DNA of 64,000 nt from Paeniglutamicibacter quisquiliarum (GTDB taxonomy: Bacteria > Actinomycetota > Actinomycetes > Actinomycetales > Micrococcaceae). The stretch covers positions 124,001 through 188,000 of the forward strand of contig NZ_JAHRED010000004.1 of NCBI RefSeq assembly GCF_019084045.1, given 5' to 3'. Positions within the stretch are counted from its first letter, which is position 1; the number at the start of each line of letters is the position of its first letter. Positions 5,541-29,705 of this stretch are shown in pieces. Below the pieces are notes generated by a model, which saw nothing but the letters and a program-made list of their open reading frames with translations, had not been told where the DNA came from and made no database searches. Both the position numbers and the translations under genes were made by a program.

Positions 5541-5552
5541 GCACGTCCAAAG

Positions 5553-5592: not shown

Positions 5593-5645
5593 TGCTTAAG
5601 CCCCTTGGCAAGTCCCTGCTCTCGGACCAGTCGAGGTCCGCGAGT

Positions 5646-5677: not shown

Positions 5678-5745
5678 GCGTTACCCGCCACCGGCACTTG
5701 TGAGCTGCGACGCCTTTGCCGTAGAGTTCTACATCACAGGCCAAA

Positions 5746-5782: not shown

Positions 5783-5826
5783 GGTGCGGCGGCCGCAGAC
5801 AGAACTCGACGAAGTGAGGAAAGCCC

Positions 5827-7731: not shown

Positions 7732-7771
7732 CCCAAACCCGTACCGGCCGATCGTCCCGGGACGGCCTCCC

Positions 7772-7810
7772 GGTGCAGTTCCCGCAACCCATGACCGCGG
7801 GAACTGCACC
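7772..7810 (+). terminator. Hairpin terminator after the hydroxylase gene
   Basis: A perfect 14-bp inverted repeat, GGTGCAGTTCCCGC at 7772-7785 and its complement at 7797-7810 with an 11-base loop, lies 41 bp after the stop codon. There is no long T-run. Confidence 0.7.
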
Positions 7811-7838
7811 TTGGCCGGGCGTGAATTTCTTCGGATAC

Positions 7839-7881
7839 CGCATAGACCTGTCGCAAGGGAATCTTCCGGCAGGTCTATGCG
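7839..7881. repeat. Inverted repeat in the leader of the SDR gene
   Basis: CGCATAGACCTG (7839-7850) is perfectly repeated in inverse orientation at 7870-7881. The stem can be extended inward by about three more pairs. It ends 54 bp before the SDR start, and TATAT-rich sequence follows. It lies outside both genes and may be an operator or an RNA hairpin in the SDR leader. Confidence 0.5.
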
Positions 7882-7935
7882 TTTGCATGTATATGGGCGG
7901 TTATCCCCGCCAGATCCACCGAAAGGAATACCCAA

Positions 7936-8718
7936 ATGCAAAGGTTCGAGGAAAAGACAGTCATCATCACCGGCGCAGGCTCGGGCCTGGGCCGGGCGGC
8001 CGCCATCCAGATCGCCAAGGAAAAGGGCAGGTTGGCCCTGGTCGACCTGAACGCCGCCGGACTGCAGGAAACCGAAAAGGAAATCCGCGCGGTTGCCCCG
8101 GACACGGAGATCCTCTCCCTGACGGCAAACGTCGCCAACGAACCCGAGGTCCAGGACTACGTCGCCGCAACACTGGCGCGCTTCGGCTCGATCGACGGCT
8201 TCTTCAACAACGCCGGCATCGAAGGCAAGCAGAACCCCACCGAGGACTTCGGCTCGGAGGAGTTCGGCAAGGTCGTGGGAATCAACCTCACCGGCGTCTT
8301 CTACGGGCTCAAGCACGTCCTGAAGGCCATGCGCGAACAGGGCTCCGGCGCAGTGGTGAACACCGCATCGGTCGGCGGCATCCGCGGCGTGGGCAACCAG
8401 TCCGGCTATGCCGCGGCCAAGCACGGCGTGGTGGGCCTGACCCGCAACTCCGCCATCGAATACGGCCAGCACGGCATCCAGATCAACGCCATCGCGCCGG
8501 GCGCCATCATGACCCCCATGGTCGAGGGGTCACTTAAGCAGATCGACCCCGAAAACTGGGAACAGGTCGGCCAGGCGTTCGTCGAGCCCAACCCGATGAA
8601 GCGCTTCGGCAAGCCCGAGGAGGTCGGCCAGCTGGTCGCCTTCCTGCTTTCCGGCGATGCCGGCTTCATCAACGCGGCCGTCATCCCGATCGACGGCGGC
8701 CAGTCCTACAAGTACTGA
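7936..8718 (+). CDS. Short-chain dehydrogenase/reductase
   Basis: Classical SDR of 260 residues, an NAD(P)-dependent alcohol/ketone oxidoreductase. Visible motifs are the cofactor loop TGAGSGLG (12-19), NNAG near residue 92, catalytic Ser145 and Y158-x3-K162 (SGYAAAK), and the C-terminal IDGGQSYKY. An acidic Asp (VDLN) after the second strand suggests preference for NAD(H). Similar proteins include levodione-reductase-like enzymes, but the substrate is unknown. GAAAGGA precedes the ATG. It is separated from the upstream hydroxylase by a terminator, so joint transcription is unlikely. Confidence 0.9.
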   Translation: MQRFEEKTVIITGAGSGLGRAAAIQIAKEKGRLALVDLNAAGLQETEKEIRAVAPDTEILSLTANVANEPEVQDYVAATLARFGSIDGFFNNAGIEGKQNPTEDFGSEEFGKVVGINLTGVFYGLKHVLKAMREQGSGAVVNTASVGGIRGVGNQSGYAAAKHGVVGLTRNSAIEYGQHGIQINAIAPGAIMTPMVEGSLKQIDPENWEQVGQAFVEPNPMKRFGKPEEVGQLVAFLLSGDAGFINAAVIPIDGGQSYKY

Positions 8719-8745
8719 GTCCGGCGGCCGGGTCCGCCGGATGAC

Positions 8746-8773
8746 GGCCCCGCGGTGGTTTCACCGCGGGGCC
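8746..8773. terminator. Bidirectional terminator between SDR and HD-GYP genes
   Basis: A perfect 12-bp stem, GGCCCCGCGGTG at 8746-8757 and its complement at 8762-8773, closes on a GTTT loop. It sits between convergent genes and includes the stop codon of the minus-strand gene. Confidence 0.8.
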
Positions 8774-11961: not shown

Positions 11962-13365
11962 TCAGTTGCCGCCGGCGAGCCTCCGGGCCGCCGCCACGTA
12001 GCGGTCCGTGACCATCGACTGGGCGGCCGCCGTCACCGGGGATCCCAGGCGGTAGATCCCCGGCGAGGGCCGCGAGACTGCCTTGAGCTCCAGGCACACC
12101 GCGCCGTCGGGCTCCAGCACCGCGGCGAAGGACTCCTCGCCCGTCTCCGGGTGCCCGGCCAGGGTGCCGTAGGCGAATCCGCGCCGGGTCTCGGACTCGA
12201 TCAGCCGCACGACGCGGCAGGGAGCCTCGATGCGCACCGGCCCGAAGCCGGCGCCGAGCCGGACGCGGCTGGCCGGCTGGACGGACGGGGTGTCGGCGCG
12301 CACGCGCAGCCCCGCGCCCTCGTGCAGCTTCCAGGACATGATCCCCGCGGCCAGCGCATCGAAGGCCGCCGCGCCCTGCCCCACGCGCTCGCGCACTTGA
12401 AGCGTCCGGTAGCCGGCGGGTGCCGGGACGGAGTCGGTGATGCCGGGATCCGGATAGCTCAGGTCATTGAGAACGCCGAGGCGGAAAAGCCTGCGGCGTG
12501 CCGCCAGTTCCGCAGGGCCATGCTTGGCCAGCGCCAGGCCCGCCATCCCGAGCGCCGCCTTTCCGCCGAGGCGGGCCGGCAGTTGCACCGGTCCCACGGA
12601 CGGCCGCCGGAGCCCCAGCATCCGCAGGTGGTTTTCGGGCAGGGTGGCAACCACCGCGGCGAAGAGCAACTTGTAGCCGGGCAGCACGGCGGGATCCAGC
12701 GGCGGGCTCTTCAGGAAGGAGACGACCTGCTCGACCCTGGGCCCGCCGGCCAGTTCGCCGCGGTCCTCGTATCCGGCAATCGCCTCGCGCAGTTCGGCTT
12801 CGCTGCGCGGCGGGTTGGCCACGCCCATGAGTTCACCTGCCTTGGCCCACTCGCGCACATAGGCGTCGGCGCCCTGCGGAACGGGGCCGGAAAAGATCTC
12901 GTGGCTGCGCAGGAAGGCGTCGGCGAAGGCCAGATGCACCCAGGCCGCGAGGCTGGGGTCGTTGGCCGCGTACTCGCGTTCCTCCCCGGTGCCGGCGGTG
13001 TACCTGCCGGTGACGGGTTCGTGACGGCGGGCCACCCAGGCGCAGGCGGCATCGGCCGCAACGGTGTCGCCATAGGTGAGGGTGAAGATCCACCGGATGG
13101 TGCCGGCAAGCCGGGCCAGCGGATCGCTTTGGTAGTTCGAGTGTTCGGCCACCCCTGCCAGCGCCCCCGGGTGGAGGGCCTGGGTGAGCAGCGCCCGGAT
13201 TCCGGCGGCGATCGGGCTCATCCCGCCGTGCACCACCCAGACCGCGGAGTCGTGCGGGAAGTATCCCGCATCGTCCCCGCGGTCCAGTTCGCGTTCCCAC
13301 ACCGGATCGTAGTGTTCCTGGGCGGAGAAGGTCTGCTGCAGCTTGCGCCTCAGTGGTTCGAACAA
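11962..13365 (-). CDS. Oxygenase MpaB family protein (DUF2236)
   Basis: Protein of 467 residues of the MpaB/DUF2236 family, haem-binding oxygenases that include the rubber oxygenase Lcp and the fungal mycophenolate enzyme MpaB. The family stretch is clear: VWVVHGG, LLTQALHPGALAGVAEHS, and RTIRW-like WIFTLTYGDTVAADAAC with later HLAFADAFL. Several conserved His and Arg residues that hold the haem are present. It starts 8 bp after the stop of a small antibiotic-biosynthesis-type monooxygenase and is probably cotranscribed with it. The substrate is unknown. Confidence 0.85.
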   Translation of the reverse strand: MFEPLRRKLQQTFSAQEHYDPVWERELDRGDDAGYFPHDSAVWVVHGGMSPIAAGIRALLTQALHPGALAGVAEHSNYQSDPLARLAGTIRWIFTLTYGDTVAADAACAWVARRHEPVTGRYTAGTGEEREYAANDPSLAAWVHLAFADAFLRSHEIFSGPVPQGADAYVREWAKAGELMGVANPPRSEAELREAIAGYEDRGELAGGPRVEQVVSFLKSPPLDPAVLPGYKLLFAAVVATLPENHLRMLGLRRPSVGPVQLPARLGGKAALGMAGLALAKHGPAELAARRRLFRLGVLNDLSYPDPGITDSVPAPAGYRTLQVRERVGQGAAAFDALAAGIMSWKLHEGAGLRVRADTPSVQPASRVRLGAGFGPVRIEAPCRVVRLIESETRRGFAYGTLAGHPETGEESFAAVLEPDGAVCLELKAVSRPSPGIYRLGSPVTAAAQSMVTDRYVAAARRLAGGN

Positions 13366-14260: not shown

Positions 14261-17200
14261 TTAGTTCCCCTCGCCCTTGCGGCGGCGCGCCACTGCCACG
14301 AATGCCGCGCCGAGGAGCATGAGCAGGGCCCCGGATCCCAGGACCCACAGGGTGGAGTCGGGGGCGCCGGTGTCGGCCAGCGTCGCCACCGGCCTGCGCG
14401 GTGGCAGCACGGCTGCAGGCCGGACCGGGACGGGGGTCTGGATGACCTGCACCGGGTTCCGTGGCGAGGGGTTGGACTGCTTGACCAGTACCGGAGTCCG
14501 GTGCGTGGTCTTCGATTCCGGGACGTCCCCGCTGCCGGTGGCCACGTTCACCAGGACCGCGTCCCAGGCCCCGTCGTTCACGGTGACGGAGTAGGAAAGC
14601 GTCTTGGCCTCCCCGACGGCCAGGTCCCCGACGGTCCAGAGAAGCCGGCTGCCCTCGAGGGCGAACTCGCCGCCACTGGCCTTCAGGCTGCCTTCGTTCA
14701 GGGTTGCCGCCTGCTGCCAGCCGGCCATCTGGTCGGTGACCACAGCCCCGGTGTACACGAACTCGCCGGTGTTGCGCACCGTGAGGGTGTAGGTGATGGT
14801 GTCACCGGGCCAGACCACGGCGCCGCTGGCCGGATCGGCGGTCTTCACCAGCGAGTAGCTGCGCGGGTTCTTCACCGGTTCCACGCAGTCCCGGGAATGG
14901 CTGGTCTTGCCGTTGGCGCTCAGCGTGGCCTCGTTCAGGAAGCCGCCGTCGGCGTTCCCCTCCGCGGACGGGCAGCTGTCCGCGGCCGATCCGATCACGC
15001 CGTCCCGCAGGGTCGCGAGAACATGCACCCGGTAGGTGTGGGAGTCGCGGGCCTCCAGGGTGCGGTCCGCGGCGAGCACCGTGCCCGGTTCGCTGCCGGG
15101 GTCCGCCCAGCTGCCCCTCTCATCCGTGCCGTCCATGCTCCAATCGGCGCCGGTGGCGGTGAGCCCCTCGCCGAAGCGCAGCGTGTCGGTGAGGTCGTAG
15201 CGGGTTGCCACGTCCGAGGTGTTGTTCACGACGACCGTGTAGTTCACGTCCCAGCTGCCGTCCGCGTTCTCCACGGCGCTTTCGGCGGTCTTGACGACGT
15301 TGCTGCCCGGTGCCGGGATCTCCAGGCATGCCTGCCCGGTGGCGGATTCGTTGCCGGAACCCACTTCGCCGGCGTTCAACAGGCCGTGCCCGTCCTCGCC
15401 GCAGGTGCGGTCCGCGTCGGTGATGGCGGAGGCGAGGCGGAGATTGAGCACCACCGTGAAGGTGTGGACTTCGCCGGCCTCCAGCACCTGGCCGGCGACC
15501 ACCACGTCATCTGCGGGGTCCGCGCCGCTCCAGCCCGCATTGACCGCCACGTCCGCGGAGCCGGCCGTGCGCTCGTTGACGAGCACGCCGTCCGCGAAGG
15601 CCGGAGTGTCGGAGAGCGTATAGAAAACGTCCTGCCCGTGCGTGCCCGGATTGCTGACGGTGAGCTTGTAGCTCGCGTCCCAGGTGCCGTCCCAGTTCCC
15701 GTCTGCGTCCTCATGCTGGATGAGGTCAACGGCCTGCTTGTCGAACGTCGGGGCGACCGGTGCGGCACAGGCCGCGACCTCGCTGTCCCGGCCGTTGGCG
15801 GTGAGGGTCGCCGTGTTCAGGAACCCGGTGCCGTCCTCGCCCTCGGCGAGCTCGCAGTCCCCTGCCGCGGACCCGATGACCCCGGTGGCCACGTTTGCGG
15901 TGGCGCTGACCAGGTAGGTGTGGGTCTCCTTCGCGTCGATCGGCGCGTTGGTGGCCAGGACCTCGGTGTGGTTCGTTGTCTCCAGGTCCCATGCATCGCC
16001 GTCACCGGCCTCCGGGCCGGTCCACGAGGCGTCGGCGACCTCGATGCCGCCGCCGAAGGACAAGGTGTCGCTCAACGAGTAGCGGCCCTGGAATGCGTCG
16101 TCGTTGGTTACCTCCAGCTTGTAGGTGATCTCCCAGCTGCCGTCCGCATTCTGCCGGGTGCCGGTGACGGTCTTGGCGACCGTCGGGGCGCCGACCCTCA
16201 CACAGACCTCGACCGATGCACTTGCATCGTCGGTCGCAACGCTGGTTGCCGTGTTCTCATGTGTGGTGCAGGTGCCGTCCAGGGCATCCGGGTTCGGGTT
16301 CCGGTAGATCACCTGGTAGGTGAACTCGGTGGGCACCGAATCGGCGTTCCAGTCGGCGGTGCCCAGCTTCACGGGCTGCGGAACCGTTGCGGCCTTGTCG
16401 TCGAAGACCTCAAGGTCGGCATTCGCGGAACCCACCTGCTCGTAGAGCACCTCGGCCGAGGCCGTGGCGGAGGCGTCCCCGCCCTGGACGGTTGCCCAGG
16501 TGGCGGTGACGGTGTGCTCGCCCGCATGGTCCCCGTTTTCCGGGGTCCCGGTGCAGGTGTATGCAAGGGTCACGGTGTTGGCCGTGCCGTTGGCGCCGGC
16601 GGGCACCAGGACCTGGAACCCGTCGCTGTCCGGGTCGGCGTCTGTGGCATCGATGGCGCACGTGACGCCGGCAATGTCGACCCCGCCGGTGAGCGTGGCG
16701 GTGATGTCGCCGCCGGCAAACCGGTTGGGGTTGCCCAGCGTGATCGTGCCGGCCACCTGGTGGTTTGAATCCACGTAGCCGTTGGGCGTCGCGGTGACCG
16801 TGTAGTCGAACGTCGCCGTTGAGTCCAGGCCGATGTCGGCCCCGGCGCGGTCAACGTCCTTGTCCAGCTTCCACAGGTATTCGCGGTCGAAGGTGGCTTC
16901 GGCGGGGTCGGAAACCTCCAGTCCCGCCTTGGCGCACACTTCCACGTCCGCCGTGGCGGTGTTGTCGGCCTCGTCGGTCCCCGTGGTTTCCCCCAGGACC
17001 GCGCTGTTGGTGTATGTGGTGCAGGTGCCCGCCCGACCCGCCAGCTCCACCTGGTAGGTGAATTCCTGCGGCGGCTGGCCCGCGGTTGCCGTTCCCAGCT
17101 CGTGGACCGAGCCGGGTGCCGTCTTGTCGTCGAGCACCGTCACTTCCCCGTCGATGTCCTTGGCCCGGTCCCGGGTGAACAGGACGTCGGCGACGAACTC

Positions 17201-20200
17201 GGCGCTGCGGTCCTTGCCGTCCGCGCCACTCCAGGTGACGAGGGCGGTGTTGGTGTGGCCTTCGTAGTCGTCCTCGGTGAGCGGCTCGGCCAGCACGCAG
17301 TCGTAGCCGACCGTGGCCTTGCCGCTGGTCACGATGCCGTCAACGACGGTTGCCGCCGGGACCACGACGTCCGTGCCCCCGCCGGCCACGGTGCAGGTGG
17401 CGCCGGGAACGGTGGTGGCATCGGCGATGCCGACGCTCAGCTCGCCCTGCCGGTTCGGGTTGAACACGTCGATCGATCCGGACATCGTCCAGTCCTGGTC
17501 TTCGTGTCCCCCCTGCGTCGCGGTGACCCTGTAGTTGGCGGTCGCCTTGCCGTTTTCATCGACGGTGAACTTGGCCTGGTCCACCGTCTTGTCGAGGTTC
17601 CAGTCGTAGTCGCGGGTGAATGCGGCTTCGACGGTCTTGACCACGGTCAGGCCCTTTTCAACGCACACCTCGATATCGGCGGATGATTCGTTGCCCGCGG
17701 GGTGGTTCGCGTCGCCGTCGATCACGGCGGTGTTGGTGAAGGTGGTGCACTTGCCTGCGGCAGCCTCCCAGTCGACGTCGTAGCTGAAGGTCTTTGGCGA
17801 CTCGTCCAACGTCACCGTCCCCAAAACATGCCCGTTCCCCGTGTACCTGTCATCGGTCACCGTGATGTGGGTGTCGGTTTCCGTGGCCATCTTGAAATCG
17901 GCGGCAACCGGGCCGCTCGAGGCACTGCGGCCTTCACCCCAGGTGGCCGTTGCGGTGTTCGTGATGGCGCCGGTGTAGTCGGACTCGTCCACTCCCGCCG
18001 CAACGTCACAGCCGTAGCTGAGCTCCAACGTGTCGCCCGCGGCGATCTCTACGGCCTTGCCGTCCGCAATGGTGCACAGCACGCCGTCAAGGTCCAGGGT
18101 GTCCTCGACGTTGGCCGTGATGGAACCGAAGTCGTTGGGGTTGTGCACGGCGATGGTTCCACCGAGCTGCCAACCCGAATCCGTGTGCCCGATCTTGGTG
18201 GCGGCCACCTTGTAGCCCGCCGTGACCTTTCCGTCGCCGTCGACATTGAAGGAGGCATTGTCGGCGACTTTCTCGATCGTCCAGTCGTAGTCGCGGTCGA
18301 AGCTCGCGGTGACGTCCTGGGTGACCTCCAGGTCCTGCTCAACACAGAGAGTGACCTTCCGGCTGGCCGAATCCAGGGTCGCCTGGTTCCAACCGTCTTC
18401 GGTGACAATCGCCGTATTCGTGTACTCCGCGCATGCTCCGGGGGTTCCCGTGTACATCAGGTCGTAGGTGAACTCCGTCGGGTCCTTTTCCTCGTTCCAT
18501 GCTGCTTGGCCCAACAGCTCCGGGTATTCCGTCTCGAAGACCTTGTCATCAAAGACCAAGACGTTTTTGTCGTACTCGGTGTCCAGCACGTACTCGACCT
18601 CGACCGAGGCCGTGGCGGTCCGGTTGGTGCCGGCGGCGTCCTTCCACGTGGCATCAACGGAGTTGGTGCCCGTGTAGGTTGCCGGGACACCGGTGCATTC
18701 GTAGTCCAGGACCACGCTGCCCGGGTTGCCGCCGGTGCCCGCAGGCACCCGGACCTGGAGGCCTGCCTTGTTCGGGTCGATGTCCGTGGCCCGGATCTCA
18801 CAGCTCAACCCGGCGATGTCCACCGTGTCGGTGAGGGTTGCGGTGATCGCCCCGGCCTCGAATTGGTTGGGGTTCGTCAAAGTGATCTTGCCGTCCAAGG
18901 TTTCGCCAAAGTCCTCAAAGCCGTTTGGCACTGCCGTGACGGTGTAGTTGAAGACGGCCTGCCCCTCCGGTGCAACCGTCTGCTCCGTCCTGTCGACGTC
19001 CTTCGTGGCGTTCCACTTGTACAGGCGGTCGAAGGAAGCGTTGGCCGTCTTGGAAACCTGCAGCCCGGCCTGGTCGCAGACCGTGACGGTGGCTTCGGCA
19101 GACGGATTCGTCCCGTCGCCACCGAGTTCGACCCAGGCCTTGTTGGTGAATGGGGTGCATTCGCCAAGCGTTGCCGCATGGGTGATCTCGTCCTTGAACG
19201 TCTTGGACCAGGTGGCCCAGTCGCCGTTCGGGATGTCGGACCACGAAACCGTGCCCAGGTTCCTGGGCGTTGAATCCGGATCGATCAACTGGTCGAGGAC
19301 CTCGACCGTTTCGTCCGTGGCTCCCTTGAGCCCGAAGGCGATGTCGACAGGTTGGCTGCTGGCCTGGCCACCGTTCCAGGTGATGGTTGCGGTGTTCTTT
19401 TGGCCGGTGTAGTTGGCCTCGGTCACTGAACCGGCATCGCAGTTGTAGGCGACCTTCTTCTTGCCATTGACCCAAACTTCTCCGGACACGGTGGCCTGCG
19501 GAACGAGGACCTGGACGCCGTCGGCATCCGGGTTGGTATCGGCCGTTTGATCCACGGTGCAGGCAACGTCCGCGAGCGTGGTGGTGTCCCCCACGGTGAC
19601 CTCGACGTCGCCACCGAACGTGTTCGGGTTGGTCACGGTGATCTCGCCGTTCAGCGTCTTGGCATCATCCTTGTACCCCTTGCTGGTGGCGGTGATGTCG
19701 TAGTCGACCACGGCCGTGTGGTCGGCCCCGGTGTTGAGCGTGTCGGGACCGACCGCCGTCTTGGCAATGTCCCAGAGGTAGGTGCGGTCGTATCCCGCAT
19801 CGACGGTCTTGTTGACACTGAGACCGGCCGGGCGGCACGCCTTGATGGTGGCTTTGTCCGAGACGGCGAAGTCATGGGCGCCGGCCGCGGTTGCGGTGTT
19901 GGTGAACGGCACGCATTTGCCGGCAGAGGTTTCCGGAACGGTCCACTTGGCCGTGTAATCGCGGGTCTGTGCGCCCATCCCTTCGGTCCACGTGATGGTC
20001 CATGCCGGATCGAAGGCGTGGTGGTCATCCTTCACTGTCACCACGTTGTTCAGGGGCGTCTGCGTCCAGGTGCCCATGGTCACCTCGGCGGTCCCCGTGG
20101 ATTCCGCTTGGGCTGTGGAGGCCTTCACGGCGTCCCACGTGGCCTTGGCGGTGTTGATGCCCTCGTAGCTTGGGAGGGATTCGAAGGTACAACTGTAGGC

Positions 20201-22666
20201 GAACGCCTGAACCGAGTCCCTGGGGATGACTGCCTGGAACCCTTCGGTGTTCGGATCTGCGTCGCCTGCGGGATTCGTCCCCGCCGCACCGGTCACGGTG
20301 CATACGGCGCCGCCTCCGACATCCACGGTGTCGCTCAGGGTGGCGGTGATGTCCTGCCATTTGTTCGGGTTCCTCACCGTCATGTCTCCCGACATGGCCC
20401 AGGCACTGTCCGCCGGGTCCTTCGGCTTGACCGTTACCTTGTAGTCAACGAGGACGTCTCCGTTGGCATCGGTGGTGTACGGGCCGGCACCATTCACCGG
20501 AGTCTTGTCGATCTCCCACAGGTAGGAGCGGTTGAAGCTCGCGACAACGTTCTTGGTGACGACCAGGTCCGCGCCGAGGCAGACATCGACGGTGGCGGTA
20601 TCGCTTGCCGTTCCGCCGTCGCTCTCGGTGTATTTTGCCGTGTTGTCATAGGTCGTGCATTCGCCCGCAATGCCGGGCCAGGCAATGGCGTAGTCAAACG
20701 TCCTTGGCGCCTGCCCGGCCACGACGACGTTGCCGCCGGGCAGCGTGGCGAGGTTGAACTTGCTGTCGGTGACGGTCACCGATTCATCTGTCACCGTGGG
20801 CTGCACGCCCGCGAAGGTGAAGGCCTTGGTGGCGCCGGCGCTGCCATCGGTCCCGTAGTAGGAGGCTGCGTTCCACGTCGCGGTGACGGTGTTGGTTCCC
20901 GTGGAGGCCTCGGTGGTTCCGGCCGGCATCTCGCAGGTGTATTTATACGTCGTGGTTCCGGCAGGGACCGAGACGGGGCCCGTTACTGCAGTGCCCGCGG
21001 AGGTTTCGATGGCACAGACGGCCCCGGGGATGCTGGCGGCCAGCGTCACTCCACCGATGGCGCTGTCGTTTCCGTTCACCGCTGTCATGACACCGTCAAC
21101 GGCGAAGTTGCTGTCCTGCGGGGCGCTGGCATCGACCAGCACGCTGTAGTTGACGGCGACGTTACCGGTGGACGATGTGACGGTGGCGGGCTGGCCAGCG
21201 GCCAGGTTCTTCTCGATGCTCCAGTCGTAGTCGCGGTCGAACGTGGCCGCTGCGGTCGTGGTGACTTCGAGGTCCTTGTATGTCGTCTTGCCGTTGGTGA
21301 AGGTGCAAGTGACCTGGGCGTTGTCGGCCAGCATGAAAGACGCGTTGCGTGCCGAGGTGTCGATCGACGGTGTGACACCGGTACAGGCCAGGTTTGTGAG
21401 GTTCCATCCCGCCGGAAGTGCGTTCTCGGAAACTGTTACCCCGCCCGGTGCGACCGTGTAGGTCAGGCGGTCTGCAAGGTCCGCGCCGGCGTTGGATCCG
21501 GCGCTGTCATCCAACTGGAAATTCACGGAATCTTCGGTCGTGCCGGATCTCAGTGTGAAGTCGAAGTCGGTGCCGTCTGCCGGGGTGGCGTCCTTGATGA
21601 TGGTCACGGAACCGGCCTGGACGTCGCTCGCCGAGACCTGGTTCGCACGGTTCCCCGCGGTCGCGCAATTCAACGACACCAAGGTCACGTGATATGAGGA
21701 TCCGCTGATGGCGGAGGCTCCCGCGCCCGGCCCATGGTCCAGTTCGGAGGCTACATGGACACTGAAGTAGAGGGTTACGGAGGAGGCCGTCGCATCAAAC
21801 GTGAGCTTGACGGTGTCCTCGCGGTCACTGCCCGATCCCTCGATCACCTCGGTCTTGGTGATCGTTCCGCCTGTCATTGAGTACTGGTCGATGAAGTCAT
21901 AGGCCCATTTGCCGGCAGTGCGCACCCGGTAGTTGAAGACGAATTCGTTCTCGCCCGGCTGCATGTTGCCCATCTGCACACGTTGGTCAACATAGCCGCC
22001 CTCGTAGATGCCCGAGGAAAGGTTGCCGTTGGCGAAGGAGGCGTCGCCGGCCCGCTGCATAAACGAGTCGACCTTGCCCTTGCCGATGTTCGTGTCGCAA
22101 ACGCCTGCCACCGCCGCAACGACGGGCTCGTCCTTGGCCACGGCAGAATTCGGCTCACTTGCCGACGCTTCCGCTGGTTCCCCGGTGGTTTTCTCTTCGG
22201 ACTTCGTAGGGGCTTCGGCACTCGGGGTCGCCGGCTTCCTTGAATCATTCGACTTGCTCGTCGACGGAGCTTCTGACGTGGGGGCCGCCGACTCCTGTGC
22301 CGCTTCAAGCTCTTCGTCCTCGGACGGTTCGGTGCCCTGGAGAGGTGCTTCGGCGGCCACTTCTTCCGGAGTTGCGGTCTTCGCCTTCGCCGTGTTCGAT
22401 CCGGCGCTCGCTTCGCTGCCCTCAACAGCATCCAGCAGCGCCTGCTCCACACCGGTGTCTTTGTTGTCCGACGGTGATGCCGCGGCGGGATTGAATCCAC
22501 CGCCGCTAAACATCATCGTCGCGACGAGCGCTGTCGTCGCGCTGGCAGCCACGCTTGAACGGACAATTCCGTTCCTCCAAATGGCTTCCAAAAAGGAGTT
22601 TCGGCGCGCAAAGCGACGACCTCTTAATTGATTCCGTGCAGCATTAACCCCAATTTTGCCGAACAC
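14261..22666 (-). CDS. Giant repeat-rich cell-surface protein with LAxTG sorting signal
   Basis: About 2,800 residues. Order from the N-terminus: a long signal peptide (basic start, then SSVAASATTALVATMMF and cleavage near AAAS); an Ala/Glu/Ser/Pro-rich spacer (22.5-22.1 kb); a collagen-binding-like or adhesin domain (22.1-21.6 kb); a prealbumin-like domain (TFTNGK end near 21.3 kb); seven long repeats of ~225-250 residues; three shorter ones of ~147; and a DUF11-like unit (WPGDTITYTLTVRNTGE). It ends with LADTG, a membrane helix and RRRKGEGN. LAxTG is the class E sortase signal of high-GC Gram-positives. The start is uncertain: GTG at 22666 is used here, with TTG at 22702 as the longer option, and neither has a strong ribosome-binding site. 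Probable adhesin or stalk protein; the function is inferred. Confidence 0.85.
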   Translation of the reverse strand: MFGKIGVNAARNQLRGRRFARRNSFLEAIWRNGIVRSSVAASATTALVATMMFSGGGFNPAAASPSDNKDTGVEQALLDAVEGSEASAGSNTAKAKTATPEEVAAEAPLQGTEPSEDEELEAAQESAAPTSEAPSTSKSNDSRKPATPSAEAPTKSEEKTTGEPAEASASEPNSAVAKDEPVVAAVAGVCDTNIGKGKVDSFMQRAGDASFANGNLSSGIYEGGYVDQRVQMGNMQPGENEFVFNYRVRTAGKWAYDFIDQYSMTGGTITKTEVIEGSGSDREDTVKLTFDATASSVTLYFSVHVASELDHGPGAGASAISGSSYHVTLVSLNCATAGNRANQVSASDVQAGSVTIIKDATPADGTDFDFTLRSGTTEDSVNFQLDDSAGSNAGADLADRLTYTVAPGGVTVSENALPAGWNLTNLACTGVTPSIDTSARNASFMLADNAQVTCTFTNGKTTYKDLEVTTTAAATFDRDYDWSIEKNLAAGQPATVTSSTGNVAVNYSVLVDASAPQDSNFAVDGVMTAVNGNDSAIGGVTLAASIPGAVCAIETSAGTAVTGPVSVPAGTTTYKYTCEMPAGTTEASTGTNTVTATWNAASYYGTDGSAGATKAFTFAGVQPTVTDESVTVTDSKFNLATLPGGNVVVAGQAPRTFDYAIAWPGIAGECTTYDNTAKYTESDGGTASDTATVDVCLGADLVVTKNVVASFNRSYLWEIDKTPVNGAGPYTTDANGDVLVDYKVTVKPKDPADSAWAMSGDMTVRNPNKWQDITATLSDTVDVGGGAVCTVTGAAGTNPAGDADPNTEGFQAVIPRDSVQAFAYSCTFESLPSYEGINTAKATWDAVKASTAQAESTGTAEVTMGTWTQTPLNNVVTVKDDHHAFDPAWTITWTEGMGAQTRDYTAKWTVPETSAGKCVPFTNTATAAGAHDFAVSDKATIKACRPAGLSVNKTVDAGYDRTYLWDIAKTAVGPDTLNTGADHTAVVDYDITATSKGYKDDAKTLNGEITVTNPNTFGGDVEVTVGDTTTLADVACTVDQTADTNPDADGVQVLVPQATVSGEVWVNGKKKVAYNCDAGSVTEANYTGQKNTATITWNGGQASSQPVDIAFGLKGATDETVEVLDQLIDPDSTPRNLGTVSWSDIPNGDWATWSKTFKDEITHAATLGECTPFTNKAWVELGGDGTNPSAEATVTVCDQAGLQVSKTANASFDRLYKWNATKDVDRTEQTVAPEGQAVFNYTVTAVPNGFEDFGETLDGKITLTNPNQFEAGAITATLTDTVDIAGLSCEIRATDIDPNKAGLQVRVPAGTGGNPGSVVLDYECTGVPATYTGTNSVDATWKDAAGTNRTATASVEVEYVLDTEYDKNVLVFDDKVFETEYPELLGQAAWNEEKDPTEFTYDLMYTGTPGACAEYTNTAIVTEDGWNQATLDSASRKVTLCVEQDLEVTQDVTASFDRDYDWTIEKVADNASFNVDGDGKVTAGYKVAATKIGHTDSGWQLGGTIAVHNPNDFGSITANVEDTLDLDGVLCTIADGKAVEIAAGDTLELSYGCDVAAGVDESDYTGAITNTATATWGEGRSASSGPVAADFKMATETDTHITVTDDRYTGNGHVLGTVTLDESPKTFSYDVDWEAAAGKCTTFTNTAVIDGDANHPAGNESSADIEVCVEKGLTVVKTVEAAFTRDYDWNLDKTVDQAKFTVDENGKATANYRVTATQGGHEDQDWTMSGSIDVFNPNRQGELSVGIADATTVPGATCTVAGGGTDVVVPAATVVDGIVTSGKATVGYDCVLAEPLTEDDYEGHTNTALVTWSGADGKDRSAEFVADVLFTRDRAKDIDGEVTVLDDKTAPGSVHELGTATAGQPPQEFTYQVELAGRAGTCTTYTNSAVLGETTGTDEADNTATADVEVCAKAGLEVSDPAEATFDREYLWKLDKDVDRAGADIGLDSTATFDYTVTATPNGYVDSNHQVAGTITLGNPNRFAGGDITATLTGGVDIAGVTCAIDATDADPDSDGFQVLVPAGANGTANTVTLAYTCTGTPENGDHAGEHTVTATWATVQGGDASATASAEVLYEQVGSANADLEVFDDKAATVPQPVKLGTADWNADSVPTEFTYQVIYRNPNPDALDGTCTTHENTATSVATDDASASVEVCVRVGAPTVAKTVTGTRQNADGSWEITYKLEVTNDDAFQGRYSLSDTLSFGGGIEVADASWTGPEAGDGDAWDLETTNHTEVLATNAPIDAKETHTYLVSATANVATGVIGSAAGDCELAEGEDGTGFLNTATLTANGRDSEVAACAAPVAPTFDKQAVDLIQHEDADGNWDGTWDASYKLTVSNPGTHGQDVFYTLSDTPAFADGVLVNERTAGSADVAVNAGWSGADPADDVVVAGQVLEAGEVHTFTVVLNLRLASAITDADRTCGEDGHGLLNAGEVGSGNESATGQACLEIPAPGSNVVKTAESAVENADGSWDVNYTVVVNNTSDVATRYDLTDTLRFGEGLTATGADWSMDGTDERGSWADPGSEPGTVLAADRTLEARDSHTYRVHVLATLRDGVIGSAADSCPSAEGNADGGFLNEATLSANGKTSHSRDCVEPVKNPRSYSLVKTADPASGAVVWPGDTITYTLTVRNTGEFVYTGAVVTDQMAGWQQAATLNEGSLKASGGEFALEGSRLLWTVGDLAVGEAKTLSYSVTVNDGAWDAVLVNVATGSGDVPESKTTHRTPVLVKQSNPSPRNPVQVIQTPVPVRPAAVLPPRRPVATLADTGAPDSTLWVLGSGALLMLLGAAFVAVARRRKGEGN
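14780..16200 (-). repeat. Three shorter repeats (~147 residues) plus DUF11-like unit
   Basis: Starts near 16.16, 15.72, 15.28 and 14.83 kb, about 440 bp apart. The first three share NADGSW or DGNWDGTW followed by xYxLxVxN and a Cys-containing GFLNxAxLxANG segment. The fourth is the DUF11-like terminal unit. Confidence 0.75.
16200..21290 (-). repeat. Seven tandem protein repeats (~225-250 residues) in the giant gene
   Basis: Each unit begins just after a Cys with a pattern like GLxVxKxVxAxFDRDYxWxIxK. The cores lie near 21.25, 20.54, 19.80, 19.04, 18.31, 17.63 and 16.89 kb, a spacing of about 680-755 bp. Each also has two to four Cys and a closing CTTxTNTA-like strand. They are degenerate at DNA level, so the duplication is not recent. 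Confidence 0.8.
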
Positions 22667-22896
22667 TTTAGCTACCCCAATTACCCCAAGGGGGCACGGC
22701 AACCACGCAATAAGCGCTGTTTACGAATCGGTCCCACCCGATCCGTCAGTTCAGTTCAAACCCCAAGTTCGAACCACCCCCAGCAATTATTGGGGCCCCA
22801 GCACCCAATTTGTATTGCTTGTAATGCGGTCAGTTTAGCCACAGGTCGTGAACCGCGTCCATACCGGACGGTGAAATAGTTTTGGGCGTTCAGCGT

Positions 22897-23457: not shown

Positions 23458-24876
23458 CTAGAGTGCGCGCTCCAGCGCTTCCTCGGTGTTGGCCGCCGAG
23501 TACTCCGTGAAGGCCCCGCGGAAGCGCGCCGCCGGGTGGGTCTCTTCGAGACGGGCTCCTCGTCCGAACACCTTTTCGCGCAGGGACCCCGGGGCATATT
23601 CGGTCTGCGCAAGCCCGCGGGCGCGCAACTCGGGCAGGATTCCGTCGATGAAGTCCGTGTAGGAGCCCGGCAGGACCTGGTTCATGATGTTGAGTCCATC
23701 CATTCCGGCGTCCTGCCAGCGCTCGATCTCGTCAACGATCTGCTCGGGGGTTCCCACGATCTGCTGGGCCTTGGCACGGTAGCGGGCCAGGTCGCCGATG
23801 GTTGGCTTCCCTCCGGGCACCGATGCGATGGCCGCTTCGAGGACGCCACGTGCGCCTTCCGTCTGGACGTCGCCCAAGGGCGTGTCCAGGTCCAGTCCGC
23901 CCAGATCGATCCCGATCCCGCCACCGATGTGGGCGATGATCGCATCCAGGTCCAGATACTCGTCGTAGTCGGCCTCCTTGGCCTTGGCTTCGGCCTCGGT
24001 GCTTCCCACGACAAATGACAGGCCTGCAAAGACCTTGACGTCTCCCTTGGCGCGTCCTGCGGCGGCCTCCAGCTCGCGGATCTTGCCCACCTGCTTGGCC
24101 ACATACTCCGGGTGCGGAGCAAAAAGGAAAGTTGCCTCCGCATGTTCCGCGGCAAACTGGCGCCCGCGGGCGGACGATCCGGCCTGGAACAGGAACGGCG
24201 TGCGTTGCGGGCTCGGCAAGGCAAGGTGCGGGCCCTCGATGGAATACCGTTTTCCCTGGTGGTGGATCTTGTTGACCTTGGCAGGGTCGGCAAAGACGCC
24301 GGTTTCCTTGTTGGCCAGAACCGCGCCATCCTCCCAGGAACCTTCCCACAACTTGTACGTCGCCTCGACGTATTCCTCGGCCCAGTCATAGCGGTCGTCG
24401 TGGGCGGTCAGGCCGGCCGCACCAAAGTTTCGGTGCGAGTTCTCCAGGACGCTGGTCACGATGTTCCATGCGACGCGGCCGTTGGAAAGGTGGTCCAGCG
24501 TGGAGAGCTGGCGCGCAAACTGGAACGGAGCGGCCTGCACCACGGAACTGGTCATGGCCAGTCCGATGTCGCTGGTGGTTGCTGCAAGGGCCGAGAGCAG
24601 CACGAGCGGGTCGTGGGACGGAACCTGCATGCCCTTGCGGACCATCGAGGCCCAGCCGCCCTCGTGGTTGCCGTAAAGCCCCACGACGTCGGCAAAGAAC
24701 AGGTTGTCGAACTTGGCGTCCTCAAGCTGCTTGGCCAGGTCGACCCACAGTTGCAGCTCATTGAAGCGGTGCTGCTGCGCTTTAGGGTGGCGCCATTGGC
24801 CACCCAGGATGTGGCTGGAGGTGTTCATCAGGAATGCGCTCAGCAGCAGGCGCGGACGAACGTCAAAAGTACCCAT
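23458..24876 (-). CDS. NtaA/SnaA/DszA-family FMN-dependent monooxygenase
   Basis: Luciferase-like (LLM) monooxygenase of 472 residues that needs reduced flavin from a partner reductase. Family landmarks are GGQWRHP near residue 26, the long FADVVGLYG stretch, LSTLDHLSNGRVAWNIVTS near residue 130, HHQGKRYSIEGP and FQAGSSARGRQFAA. In this family DszA cleaves dibenzothiophene sulfone and NtaA attacks nitrilotriacetate. In this operon, with a DszC-like gene and an importer under an S-box, release of sulfur from an organic sulfone or sulfonate is likely. Its ATG directly follows the TAA of the DszC-like gene. It is last in a six-gene operon. Confidence 0.88.
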   Translation of the reverse strand: MGTFDVRPRLLLSAFLMNTSSHILGGQWRHPKAQQHRFNELQLWVDLAKQLEDAKFDNLFFADVVGLYGNHEGGWASMVRKGMQVPSHDPLVLLSALAATTSDIGLAMTSSVVQAAPFQFARQLSTLDHLSNGRVAWNIVTSVLENSHRNFGAAGLTAHDDRYDWAEEYVEATYKLWEGSWEDGAVLANKETGVFADPAKVNKIHHQGKRYSIEGPHLALPSPQRTPFLFQAGSSARGRQFAAEHAEATFLFAPHPEYVAKQVGKIRELEAAAGRAKGDVKVFAGLSFVVGSTEAEAKAKEADYDEYLDLDAIIAHIGGGIGIDLGGLDLDTPLGDVQTEGARGVLEAAIASVPGGKPTIGDLARYRAKAQQIVGTPEQIVDEIERWQDAGMDGLNIMNQVLPGSYTDFIDGILPELRARGLAQTEYAPGSLREKVFGRGARLEETHPAARFRGAFTEYSAANTEEALERAL

Positions 24877-26112
24877 TTACTTGCTCTCCGATTTCGTGTC
24901 CGTGGCTTCACCGATCGAGTGCAATCCGGTGGGAATGGTGCCATTGATGTAGTAGTCGCCCACCGAACGGGCCTTGAAGGCGACCGGGTTGTGGGTCGCG
25001 ACGGTGCGGGCGTTGCGCCAGTGCCGGTCAAGGGATTTTCCGCGTGAAACGGACGAGGCGCCGGTGACGTCGAAGAGTTCGCTGGTTGCATCCAGCACCA
25101 GCTTCGGGACCGTCACGTGGGCCTGCTGCACGGCAATTTCCGCGCGGATGAAGGCAGCGGTCGGGTCCAGGCCCAGGGACTGGTCCACCGCGGCATCCAG
25201 GTCGCGGGCGGCGGCAGTAACGATCGAATCCGCCGCGTAGACGGCCGCTGCGATGCGGCCGACCTTTTCCTGGATCAGCGGGTCGTTCCGGAAGAGTTCA
25301 CCTGATCCGGTGTTGAAGGTTCGGGTGCGGGTGCGCACCAATTCGGCGGCGTCTGCCAGTGCCGCACGCCCGATCCCGGCCAGGACGCTCAGGAGGGCCA
25401 TCTGGAAGAAGGCCGGCTCGAGGGTGGAGGAGACCTTGCGCTGGATGATGTCTTCGAACGGGACCACAACATCGTCGAAGATTGCGGTGCCGGTGCCGGT
25501 CAGCGGCTGGCCAAAGCCATCCCAGTCGTCAAGGATCCGTACCCGTGCGTCATCGGCGCGCACGATGGCGTACTGCCGGCCTTCGACGCCCTCGGTGCTG
25601 GCCATGACAACCACCCAGTCGGCGAAGATGGAGCCGGTTGTGTAGTATTTTTCCCCGTTCAGCAGCCACTGCCCGGATTCCTCGCGAAGCTTGGTGTTGG
25701 TGGTGCCCAACGCATTGCCGCCCCGTTCGGTGGCCGCGTTGCCGAAGATCTCGCCGGCGAGCACCCGCGGGAACCAACGGAGCTGGAATTCCTCCGGTTG
25801 CAGGGCGATGGTTTCGACAAAGGCGAAGTGGGAGCGGAGCAAGTGGCCGACGTTGGAATCCGCGGCGGAAAGTTCCACGATCAACCGGAAGAGATGTTCA
25901 TGGCTGACCGGGTCCCCGCCATGCGCGGCCGGGACGCGCAGCGTGGTGAAGCCGGCTTCCTTGAGCCATTTCACGGGTTCGAAGGGCAGCACATGGTTGT
26001 TTTCCCGGTCCACGGTGCCTTCGGCGATCCGGCCGAACACCGGTGCAAAGCGTGCACTCAATTCCGCGTAACGGGCTTCTTCGGTTCGTTCCTGCACGTG
26101 CGTTGCACTCAT
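24877..26112 (-). CDS. DszC/SfnC-like flavin monooxygenase (acyl-CoA dehydrogenase fold)
   Basis: Protein of 411 residues with the acyl-CoA dehydrogenase fold, in the branch that acts as FMNH2-dependent oxygenases (DszC, SfnC). Evidence: GNAATERGGNALGTTNTKL, the YYTTGSIFADWVVV segment and the C-terminal LDRHWRNARTVATHNP, the His-x-x-Arg-Asn-Ala-Arg-Thr signature of this branch. True dehydrogenases instead have a catalytic Glu in a different context. It probably oxidises a thioether, sulfone or sulfonate before the DszA-like partner acts. The start has GGAAG nearby, and the stop and the next start are adjacent (TAAATG). Confidence 0.85.
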   Translation of the reverse strand: MSATHVQERTEEARYAELSARFAPVFGRIAEGTVDRENNHVLPFEPVKWLKEAGFTTLRVPAAHGGDPVSHEHLFRLIVELSAADSNVGHLLRSHFAFVETIALQPEEFQLRWFPRVLAGEIFGNAATERGGNALGTTNTKLREESGQWLLNGEKYYTTGSIFADWVVVMASTEGVEGRQYAIVRADDARVRILDDWDGFGQPLTGTGTAIFDDVVVPFEDIIQRKVSSTLEPAFFQMALLSVLAGIGRAALADAAELVRTRTRTFNTGSGELFRNDPLIQEKVGRIAAAVYAADSIVTAAARDLDAAVDQSLGLDPTAAFIRAEIAVQQAHVTVPKLVLDATSELFDVTGASSVSRGKSLDRHWRNARTVATHNPVAFKARSVGDYYINGTIPTGLHSIGEATDTKSESK

Positions 26113-26158
26113 TTTTCTTCCTTTGCATCCATGAGTTTCAAAAGTTTGTTGGCGGGAT

Positions 26159-27796
26159 TTAGCGGTTTGCCATCTCGCGCAGCAACTGTCCGGGGTTCGA
26201 GTCCAAAAGCAATTTGGTGTACTCGCTGGAGGGGTTCCCGAAGACCTGTGAGGCCGGGCCCACTTCGACGAGCGTCCCCTGTCGCATGACTCCCACGTCG
26301 TGTGAAATGCGCTCGACGACGTGCAGGTCGTGGGAAATGAAGAGGTATGACAGCCCCTGGTTGACCTGGAGGTCTTCCAGCAGCGCCAGGATCTGCGCCT
26401 GGGTCAATACATCGAGTGCGGAAAGGGCCTCATCCAGCACCAACGTCTTGGCGCCGAGGGCCAAGGCCCTGGCGATTGCCACGCGTTGCCGTTGTCCTCC
26501 GGAAAGTTCCTTCGCGCCGAGGGAGGCCATGCGCGAGGGCAGGTTGACCGCGTCCAACAGCTCGGCCACCCTGATCTTGCGTTCGTTCCTTGACCCAACC
26601 TTGTAGTTCTCCAGCGGTTCGCTGATGATCCGGGACACCGAATAACGCGGATCCAGTGCCGAATCCGGGTTTTGGTACACCAATTGCAGGCTGCGCCAGA
26701 GGTCGCGCTTGCCGGCTCCGCGCACGTGGGTGACATCTTGTCCGTGGATCTTTACCGTCCCGGCGCTGGGCTCAAGCAGGCGCATGATCATGCGCGCGGT
26801 CGTGGATTTTCCGGAGCCGGACTCCCCGACCAATGAGAAAGTGGTTCCGGGGCGGACTGCGAAGGAAACGTTGTCCACCGCTGCTCGTTCAGCTTTTCCG
26901 TTGCCATAGATCTTTGTCAGGCCACGGACCTCAATGGCCGGCATCTCGATGGCGCCTTCAGGCCCGGTGGTTTGTGCGCCCTTGCCCGTGGCAGTGGCCT
27001 CGGTAAGCAGCATCTGGGTATAGGCATCTTCCGGGGCATGCAGGATTTCACGCACCGGGCGATCCTCGCGAATCCGGCCGTGCTGCATGACCACGATGCG
27101 GTCGGCGATGTCCGTGGCCACGGCCAAGTCATGGGTCACAAAAATGACTGCGGTTCCGAGTTCCCGGGCGAGCTTGGTAAATACCTCGAGCACCGTCTGT
27201 TGGACCGTGACATCCAATGCGGATGTTGGCTCATCGGCAATCAGCAGCTCGGGTTCCAGGGCAAAGGCTATGGCAATGAGCACCCGCTGCTTCAGCCCGC
27301 CCGAGAGCTCATGAGGGTACTGTCCCAGGCGCTGTTCCGGGCGATCGATCCCGACCAGTTCCAGCAGCCTGAGGACTTCCCGGCGCAACTCCGCCTTGGT
27401 GCGCTTGCGCCCTTGCGGGTGCAGGCGGAAAACCTCGGATACCTGGGACCCCACGGTCTTCACCGGATCGAGGGAGGCTCCGGGATCCTGCGGCACCATG
27501 CCGATGCGCCGTCCGCGGATGGCTTCCAGTTCCTTGGCCGAATGGTTCAGGAGGTTGTCGCCGGCAAGGTCGATCGTTCCGCCCAGGACCTTTGCCGATT
27601 CCGGCAGCAATCCGATGATGGCCTTTGCCAGCGTGGACTTGCCGGAGCCGGATTCGCCAACCAGTGCAACGATTTCGCCGGTCTTGAGCGCGATGTCGAG
27701 GTGGTCTGCGGCGATGACCGATTCATCGCCGGTGCCGTATTGAATGCTTAGCCCACGAATGTCCAGCAATGTGGGTGCCGAGTCGATGGTGCTCAT
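26159..27796 (-). CDS. ABC transporter ATP-binding protein, fused double ATPase (Dpp/Opp type)
   Basis: Protein of about 545 residues carrying two complete ATPase domains, equal to fused DppD and DppF. Each half has Walker A GESGSGKST, a signature (LSGGLKQR in the first, LSGGQRQR in the second) and Walker B (LLIADEPTSALD and TLVLDEALSALD). It powers uptake by the adjacent permease pair. The start is the ATG before STIDSAPTL, preceded by AGGGGA; a longer frame adds 16 residues without a ribosome-binding site. The permease stop is 13 bp upstream. Position in an S-box operon with two monooxygenases suggests organosulfur import rather than peptides. Confidence 0.92.
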   Translation of the reverse strand: MSTIDSAPTLLDIRGLSIQYGTGDESVIAADHLDIALKTGEIVALVGESGSGKSTLAKAIIGLLPESAKVLGGTIDLAGDNLLNHSAKELEAIRGRRIGMVPQDPGASLDPVKTVGSQVSEVFRLHPQGRKRTKAELRREVLRLLELVGIDRPEQRLGQYPHELSGGLKQRVLIAIAFALEPELLIADEPTSALDVTVQQTVLEVFTKLARELGTAVIFVTHDLAVATDIADRIVVMQHGRIREDRPVREILHAPEDAYTQMLLTEATATGKGAQTTGPEGAIEMPAIEVRGLTKIYGNGKAERAAVDNVSFAVRPGTTFSLVGESGSGKSTTARMIMRLLEPSAGTVKIHGQDVTHVRGAGKRDLWRSLQLVYQNPDSALDPRYSVSRIISEPLENYKVGSRNERKIRVAELLDAVNLPSRMASLGAKELSGGQRQRVAIARALALGAKTLVLDEALSALDVLTQAQILALLEDLQVNQGLSYLFISHDLHVVERISHDVGVMRQGTLVEVGPASQVFGNPSSEYTKLLLDSNPGQLLREMANR

Positions 27797-27809
27797 GCTG
27801 TTCCCCTGA

Positions 27810-28718
27810 CTAAAAACGGAAGATCTTGTGAAGCTGTCGGCCAAGACCGGCGAGCAGGATGACCACGACGACGATGACCACGCCCGGCAGGGTCGTGAGC
27901 CACCATGCCGAAGCGAGGTACTGCCGTCCCTCGGAAATGAGCAGACCCCATTCAGGGGTCGGAGGCGGAGAGCCGAATCCGAGGAAGCCGAGGCCCGAAA
28001 TCGCGAGGATCGCCACGCCGAGGTCCACCGCCAGAAGGGCCAGAACGGGGCCGCAGGAGTTGGGCAGGATGTGCTTGAAAACGACAGACCAATACGTGCC
28101 GCCGTTCATGAAGGCGGCTTCCACGTAGTCCAGGCTGCGAACGCGCAGGACCTCGGAACGCACCACGCGTGCAAACGACGCAATGGAGGCGATGCCCACG
28201 CCGATTCCCAGGGAAATCGGACCGGGGGCAAATGCCGTGACGATGATCAGCGAGACCAGGAAGCCCGGGACAGCGAGCAAGACATCGATCAGGCGCATGG
28301 TGACGGCGTCGGCCGCCCGGCCTGCGGTTGCCGCCAGCAGCCCCAGCCCGGTCCCCGCGACGAGCCCGATCGTCACCGCCAGTCCCGCGGTCAACAGCGT
28401 TTGGCTGGTGCCGTGAACCACCCGGGCAAACACGTCGCGGCCCAAGTGGTCGGTGCCAAACCAGTGGGCGAACCCGGGCGCCTGGAATTTCTCGGCCGGG
28501 ACGCCGCTAATGGGGTCCAGTCCGCTAAACAGCGAAGGGACCAACGCCCACCCCAGGACCATGATCAGTGGGGCGCAGGTCAGCCAGAATACGGGCGAAC
28601 TAAGCGCTCCCGATTTCTTCTTGGAAGATGGCACGATCTCCACCGGCGCAAGAGTGCCGGCCGGGGCGGACTGCTGCACGGCAACCTTCGTCAACGGTTC
28701 CTCTAGCTTGATGCTCAT
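27810..28718 (-). CDS. ABC transporter permease (DppC/OppC type)
   Basis: Inner-membrane permease of 302 residues. After an N-terminal tail it has a first helix (LTCAPLIMVLGWALV), the DppC-type loop FGTDHLGRDVFARVVHGT and five more helices. The EAA-like loop (YVEAAFMNGGTYWSVVFKHILPN) contacts the ATPase. It pairs with the DppB-type permease immediately upstream, and GGAGAA precedes its ATG. Family members import peptides, nickel or glutathione. The real substrate here is unknown and inferred from its neighbours. Confidence 0.9.
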   Translation of the reverse strand: MSIKLEEPLTKVAVQQSAPAGTLAPVEIVPSSKKKSGALSSPVFWLTCAPLIMVLGWALVPSLFSGLDPISGVPAEKFQAPGFAHWFGTDHLGRDVFARVVHGTSQTLLTAGLAVTIGLVAGTGLGLLAATAGRAADAVTMRLIDVLLAVPGFLVSLIIVTAFAPGPISLGIGVGIASIASFARVVRSEVLRVRSLDYVEAAFMNGGTYWSVVFKHILPNSCGPVLALLAVDLGVAILAISGLGFLGFGSPPPTPEWGLLISEGRQYLASAWWLTTLPGVVIVVVVILLAGLGRQLHKIFRF

Positions 28719-28738
28719 GGATTCTTCTCCGTTCGTTC

Positions 28739-29698: not shown

Positions 29699-29705
29699 GG
29701 GGTTG

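Follow-up and report, generated by a model that had tools for sequence, protein, structure and literature searches.

The window analysed here is a stretch of 64,000 nucleotides from Paeniglutamicibacter quisquiliarum, taken here as a soil bacterium, and the feature followed up is a single large gene on the reverse strand (Table 1). The open reading frame (14261-22702, -) comprises 2,813 codons when counted from a TTG at 22702, and residues are numbered from this TTG throughout. The likely start is a GTG at 22666, 36 bases inside that end, because the frame of two relatives (L038/L039) opens only just upstream of a conserved "VFxKxGD" stretch; the product would then have 2,801 aa. This start is likely rather than certain because in four relatives with longer frames (L034, L036, L037, and L040) the likeness extends about 10 residues upstream of the place matching the GTG. 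With either count, the surface protein of about 2,800 residues placed at 14261-22702 in an initial annotation of this DNA was recovered, and the GC content by codon position (60/51/84%) fits a real gene. Third-position GC changes from 70% at the 5' end of the gene to about 90% at its 3' end. Among the neighbouring genes, a single frame at 11962-13365 (-) joins an MPAB/Lcp-type oxygenase domain to a DUF1990 downstream of it. A run at 23458-31364 (-) encodes an FMN-dependent monooxygenase, an SfnB-like oxidoreductase, and a peptide/nickel-type ABC transporter together with its solute-binding protein, perhaps allowing a sulfur compound or a peptide to be taken up and used.

Table 1. Features of the large surface-protein gene in the window (residues counted from TTG 22702)
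Feature	Residues	Position	Strand	Basis
Whole gene, likely GTG start		14261..22666	-	frame and starts of relatives
Long basic N-terminal stretch and hydrophobic core, taken as an extended signal peptide	13-76	22475..22666	-	by eye
Ala/Glu/Pro/Ser-rich linker	77-194	22121..22474	-	by eye
Head, no family match, Cys202/Cys346	195-365	21608..22120	-	
SpaA_4; candidate isopeptide triad K370-E426-N470	366-471	21290..21607	-	Pfam 43 bits, cut-off 27.3
Long unit U1; K9 and D81 replaced	474-708	20579..21283	-	
Long unit U2; triad K717-D791-N850	709-956	19835..20578	-	
Long unit U3; triad K965-D1039-N1103	957-1209	19076..19834	-	
Long unit U4; triad K1218-D1292-N1347	1210-1453	18344..19075	-	
Long unit U5; Lys replaced by Gln	1454-1680	17663..18343	-	
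Long unit U6; triad K1689-D1761-N1818	1681-1923	16934..17662	-	
Long unit U7; triad residues all replaced (D, G, H)	1924-2167	16202..16933	-	
Short unit S1; triad K2177-D2212-N2296, Cys2283/Cys2312	2168-2312	15767..16201	-	
Short unit S2	2313-2459	15326..15766	-	
Short unit S3	2460-2606	14885..15325	-	
DUF7927/DUF11 (CLIPPER-type) domain; candidate triad K2620-D2657-N2719	2616-2733	14504..14857	-	
Pro-rich stretch, taken as wall-spanning	2741-2773	14384..14482	-	by eye
LADTG, hydrophobic segment, and basic tail	2775-2813	14264..14380	-	

Seven aligned proteins of the genus agree especially well in the N-terminal stretch (IWRNGxVRS...ALVATMMF), one of the best-conserved parts of the protein. 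Similar extended signal peptides occur in other giant surface proteins. The head, the SpaA_4 domain, and the probable two-domain make-up of each long unit were absent from the initial annotation. The candidate triad of SpaA_4 comes from comparison with Table 1 of a survey of isopeptide domains (PMC12617251).

The long units (U) form a gapless array of seven (474-2167; 227-253 aa each, pairwise identity 28-47%), in which the core motif starts at 488, 723, 971, 1224, 1468, 1695, and 1938. A profile made from U1-U7 gave 231-324 bits on each of them. The three short units (S) of 145-147 aa make up an array at 2168-2606, S2 and S3 being 35-40% identical to S1. The initial annotation had described seven units of about 225-250 residues with an FDRDYxWxIxK core, three of about 147, and then a DUF11-like unit, and all three elements were borne out, the last by a Pfam match to DUF7927/DUF11. 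Within the array DNA one 68-base pair at 81% was detected, and no recent repeat of the kind seen in L114 (below). The U profile found no second gene in the genome.

The long repeats had also been said to fit no family that could be named, and the profile searches agreed. Against Pfam, neither U nor S of the window protein gave anything at E<=1, the DUF11 match being limited to 2619-2730; against NCBIfam, U gave nothing at E<=1, and no U or S match passed a cut-off. A sub-threshold match of S1 to the NCBIfam pilin-domain model RrgB_K2N_iso_D2 was observed (15 bits, cut-off 30). Among PDB sequences, the U profile returned five weak rows, the best at E 0.0084 (an epitope scaffold, taken as chance) and the Mobiluncus adhesin 5u5o not among them; a further search with the units returned two rows (best E 0.21), and one with the head and SpaA_4 alone also two (best E 0.66). 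A reading of either kind of unit as a family already described was rejected, since nothing passed a cut-off in Pfam or NCBIfam and no PDB row was convincing. When short distant relatives were scanned against Pfam, DUF7507 appeared below threshold over part of the unit (18.2 bits in L043 and 24.6 in L044, cut-off 27). The stalk module U is absent from the libraries searched and probably represents a new isopeptide family.

Structure prediction indicated what kind of domains the units contain. The AF2 model of U6-U7-S1 (85 rows) is mostly beta, with a mean pLDDT of 91.1 and a pTM of 0.52, and because of this pair of values we take the individual domains as well predicted and their relative placement as not. 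The model of the head, SpaA_4, and U1 (87 rows) has a mean pLDDT of 82.7, the head being its weaker part and only of moderate quality. VIA-align rows for U1 span model residues near 287-445 and 287-519, extents that fit two domains per unit, and in the models each U looks like two beta-sandwich domains. The U1 matches themselves (RbmA and transglutaminase barrels, Z 8.0-9.3) show a common beta-sandwich and nothing more. Modelled S1 aligned to FnBPA (Z 10.7, rmsd 2.6, 113 aligned), to SSA1632 of S. sanguinis (Z 10.2, rmsd 3.1, 122 aligned), and to BcpA (Z 9.8, rmsd 3.3, 118 aligned). The top structural match of the modelled head with SpaA_4 was the Mobiluncus adhesin 5u5o (Z 12.0, rmsd 11.2, 191 aligned). 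Foldseek gave generic bead-string matches for the first multi-domain model (integrin legs, axoneme proteins, an RTX adhesin), and pilins, the Mobiluncus adhesin, and again axoneme proteins for the second; because its TM-scores were low, the VIA rows are used as evidence of common fold only.

The first domain of U (domain A, about 155 aa) would be a CnaA-like sandwich with a Lys9-Asn129 isopeptide bond, Asp81 as the acid, and a C90-C112 disulfide lock. The second (domain B, about 75 aa) would be an Ig/FnIII-like sandwich locked by C199-C227. Comparison by hhalign gave probabilities of 32% for domain A against S, 2 against DUF7927, and 13 against domain B; domain B scored 12 against S and 1 against DUF7927, and S scored 4 against DUF7927. 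The values are weak, and we claim no homology from them.

Conservation of the proposed cross-linking residues was followed in 193 units from 34 proteins, with a tree of the 190 distinct rows built without the K9, D81, and N129 columns. Left out before counting were weak hits, a partial unit (L046), arrays of G455 that are broken, and L035, L036, L037, L039, and L040 (judged to be copies of L052, L047, L048, L049, and L050); this analysis supersedes a first co-variation run on 87 units made without a tree. The four cysteines of the unit are near-invariant, each being present in 188-192 of the 193 units. C90 and C112 occur together in 188, are both absent in three, and in two C112 alone is absent; C199 and C227 occur in every ungapped unit, the exceptions being gaps and not substitutions. 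The K9/D81/N129 triad is intact in 168 units, replaced at all three places in 17, and partial in eight, which include U1 and U5 of the window protein. By parsimony on the tree, shared change branches number eight for K9-N129 and seven each for D81-N129 and K9-D81, with five for the next-best pairs, and the three triad pairs rank highest of 253 pairs among 23 similarly conserved columns. This joint behaviour points to a Lys-Asp-Asn isopeptide triad of the CnaA type. In the U6 model all three positions lie within strands. In the S units the residues of their own triad are constant (K 23/23, D 23/23, and N 22/22 of those covered).

Conservation also bears on which lysine of domain A would form the bond. 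K25, G62, N68, and N204 are invariant in all 193 units and D164 is found in 192, and K25, not K9, stands opposite the S-unit lysine in the weak alignment between domain A and S mentioned above. K25 might therefore be the isopeptide lysine, with N68, N70, or N204 as its partner. However, K25 is retained where D81 and N129 are jointly lost, whereas K9 is lost along with them, and we hold this assignment to be doubtful, though deserving of some weight. The K9-D81-N129 triad leaves K25, N68, D164, and N204 (16202-21283) unexplained; they possibly make up another cross-link, bind a metal, or clasp the domains together.

With K9-D81-N129 taken as the triad, U2, U3, U4, and U6 of the window protein are intact, U5 lacks the lysine, U1 the lysine and the aspartate, and U7 all three. 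Nine isopeptide bonds are predicted accordingly from sequence, in U2, U3, U4, U6, SpaA_4, S1-S3, and DUF7927. The 38 cysteines downstream of the GTG start can all be paired within domains, giving 19 candidate disulfides. Among the 193 units, the full triad is missing in 19 of 60 end units versus five of 129 internal ones (four single-unit proteins set aside), counts that are uncorrected for relatedness; 10 of the 19 end-unit losses come from five related Nocardioides arrays. The disulfide- or isopeptide-stabilised rods envisaged in the initial annotation are supported by the near-invariant cysteine pairs and the tree-based co-variation of the triad, from which we infer that the bonds form.

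The LADTG (2775-2779) is followed by a hydrophobic stretch and RRRK, as expected from the class E sorting signal previously assigned to it. The signal scored 17.0 bits with TIGR01167 (cut-off 15.9) and 21.1 with NF041528, below the cut-off of 30. The initial annotation had tied its reading to a class E sortase gene in the genome, and one was found: in the assembly, which spans 4.44 Mb on 35 contigs and is rated 100% complete, there is a single match to PF04203 (sortase), which gave 246.6 bits with the class E model NF033747 (cut-off 160) and also passed the general model TIGR01076. With the class C, D, and GN models it failed to reach the cut-off (class C NF033745, 43.9 bits vs. 160). Alignment to 5utt shows, by eye, H, C, and R at the catalytic positions. 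The sortase gene lies on another contig, beside a gene for anthranilate/aminodeoxychorismate synthase component II. Class E sortases serve LAXTG signals (PMC5148588), and the window protein is a candidate substrate of this enzyme.

Sortases also build pili, and the protein might be a subunit, backbone or tip, of a sortase-polymerised pilus, since several of its domains are pilin-like (BcpA, EbpB, PilB, and SpaA-type) and S1 gave the weak pilin-domain match noted above. However, the only sortase found in the genome, rated 100% complete, is of class E and is encoded on a different contig, the scanned neighbours of the gene look metabolic, and a chain of 2,801 aa would already be as long as pili become by polymerising. 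A pilus subunit is in our judgement very improbable, and a polymerised pilus was ruled out as no class C sortase was found in the genome.

A search of the genome with the LAETG family gave nine weak places, none over cut-off. The top two were the window gene and a frame of 928 aa, and 10 of 14 control genomes also matched at the same loose threshold. The only other inspected place resembling a class E substrate was L062 on contig C12, a second surface protein with an LANTG end, Ig-like repeats, and, by eye, a protease-like GDSGG. Among 15 unit-bearing proteins of the window's genus and of g258 (L122, a second g258 gene, counted apart), 12 end in LAxTG; the exceptions are L050 (LPLTG), L051 (LVETG), and L120, in which no signal was found by pattern. 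LPxTG ends were found in L053, L055-L060, L113-L115, and L122. The literature searched contained no paper linking sortase to Paeniglutamicibacter, class E sortase to Arthrobacter, or adhesin and sortase to Glutamicibacter. Papers found on class E sortases, Actinobacteria, and LAXTG concerned, by title and start of abstract, other genera. Chaplin anchoring in Streptomyces is treated in PMC5148588, and the hydrophobic wall proteins of Actinoplanes in PMC13251363 (2026).

The long units are patchily distributed. They are present in eight of 15 genomes of the genus, the window's own included, with 2 to 10 units each, and absent in seven (one of them 88% complete); the protein is therefore not required genus-wide. 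A family sample of 295 genomes yielded 22 with a match at E<=0.001, of which 19 have strong units and three weak fragments only; a phylum sample of 396 yielded 18, of which six have near-complete units and the other twelve weaker or partial ones. Carriers named in one contig scan of 14 loci are Paeniglutamicibacter psychrophenolicus, P. antarcticus, P. terrestris, two Arthrobacter, a Glutamicibacter, two Microbacterium, five Nocardioides records, and an Acidimicrobiia MAG.

The heads carried by these arrays differ. The head of the window protein has no Pfam match at E<=1, and heads of this type (type A) recur in 12 of 33 other proteins examined, across genera: L051 gave 163 bits against the window head alone and six g258 proteins 220-236 bits against a profile. 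A VWA domain occupies the head position in two other genomes of the genus (L038, 41.8 bits; L049, 26.9 bits; cut-off 23.8) and in the Acidimicrobiia MAG was just under the cut-off (23.5 bits). Heads without a Pfam name occur in Microbacterium, Nocardioides, and another genus of Micrococcaceae, and L041 has a thioester-domain match below cut-off (20.1 bits vs. 22). A SpaA-type domain precedes the U array in many relatives, is sub-threshold in L122, and was not found in L053 and L055; S units follow the array in nine of the 34 proteins. Judged from these comparisons, the U array is the constant part on which putative heads are exchanged, which lends support to the very long stalk proposed at the outset.

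The number of long units per protein ranges from 1 to 10 among the 34 proteins. In L114 (Micrococcaceae), positions 4501-8757 hold an exact direct repeat of 2,169 bases with a period of 2,088 bases, equal to three units. This marks a recent change in length, and shows that duplication of blocks alters unit number, provided that the assembly is correct at this place. L113 (G428) has neighbouring genes with nine and four long units and a near-identical head, likely a local gene duplication.

Such wide variation in unit number, together with a head of no known binding family, would also suit a structural fibre of the wall or coat (S-layer-like or a spacer) that has no dedicated ligand and whose head diverges neutrally. 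Against this, the type-A head is kept between genera (L051 and the six g258 proteins), and VWA stands at the head position in relatives; we consider a purely structural fibre unlikely.

We consider it probable that the window protein is an unusually long, monomeric fibrillar adhesin, anchored by a class E sortase, with a stalk locked by predicted disulfide and isopeptide bonds. Computation shows the layout of the protein, its anchor signal, a gene for the sortase, co-variation of the triad, exchange of heads, and change in unit number. Both a C-terminal wall-anchor signal and repeated stalk domains (seven U, three S, DUF7927/DUF11, and SpaA_4), by which fibrillar adhesins are recognised, are present. 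The adhesin would be secreted via the long signal peptide, the one class E sortase would join its C-terminus to peptidoglycan at LADTG, and the N-terminal head would be held past the wall on a rod made of about 20 beta-sandwich domains, where the head may bind a surface or a partner cell. Besides domain A, the S units, DUF7927, and SpaA_4 would each have their own Lys-Asp-Asn or Lys-Glu-Asn triad. A stalk of this kind would withstand pulling and proteolysis, resistance to force being its presumed purpose, while its length would shift by duplication of unit blocks and its head would be swapped.

A further proposal, on which we are evenly divided, concerns the module itself. U may be an undescribed stalk module of Actinomycetota and a 27th isopeptide family, in which a stretched CnaA-like domain is coupled to a disulfide-locked one, serving as an interchangeable boom for different heads; the isopeptide would be switched off preferentially in the units at the array ends, giving softer ends and a rigid middle. 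The 26 families listed in the 2025 survey (PMC12617251) include CnaB-like ones, and by a Pfam scan U belongs to none of them. AlphaFold models of at most 1,280 residues were its source, and because of this limit chains as long as the window protein would be invisible to it. Relatives of only 507-568 aa that bear the unit fall within the limit, yet no family matching U is listed, which counts against the main reading given above.

CnaA-like isopeptide domains use Lys-Asp-Asn (PMC12617251). Among them, DUF11/CLIPPER, DUF7507, and DUF7927 share with U, as predicted, this triad, the beta-sandwich, and a tandem arrangement in surface stalks, and a DUF7927/DUF11 domain itself forms the base of the window protein. 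In contrast, U of the window protein matches none of the three (Pfam, E<=1), and its CnaA-like domain would be followed by a second, disulfide-locked one. The Lys-to-Asp spacing of U is 70-83 residues (168 units with the full triad); computed from Table 1 of that survey, the spacing is 33-62 for 14 CnaA-like families out of 15, and the remaining one, GBS104-like, carries a large insertion. Were the Lys9-Asn129 bond confirmed, U would be a new isopeptide family beside the 26 surveyed. The natural on/off pattern of triads along an array supplies ready test pieces for learning how a molecular rod is tuned by its cross-links.

Actinobacterial fibrillar adhesins whose heads are VWA or TED and whose stalks are SpaA, as described in PMC8286594 and PMC9210967, have the same order of N-terminal head, stalk, and LPxTG/LAxTG signal, and VWA is the second most common adhesive domain in the survey of fibrillar adhesins. 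Their repeats are SpaA or DUF11, whereas the stalk of the window protein consists mostly of the unnamed U module. The giant TIE-type adhesin of Mobiluncus mulieris (5u5o/5u6f, PMC10619420) is likewise an actinobacterial single chain with an N-terminal head and a long Ig-like array locked by isopeptide and disulfide bonds, which in the window protein are predicted. The Mobiluncus protein is described as having a thioester head and ester-bond domains; in contrast, the window protein gave no TED match at E<=1, a TQ (ester-bond) domain was not among its Pfam matches, and HxDxxDxxQ was not seen by eye in the head. The window protein is a large fibrillar candidate substrate of a class E sortase with a testable architecture, which on present tests is no member of DUF11, the pilins, or the TIE proteins but would work like the known cross-linked adhesins.
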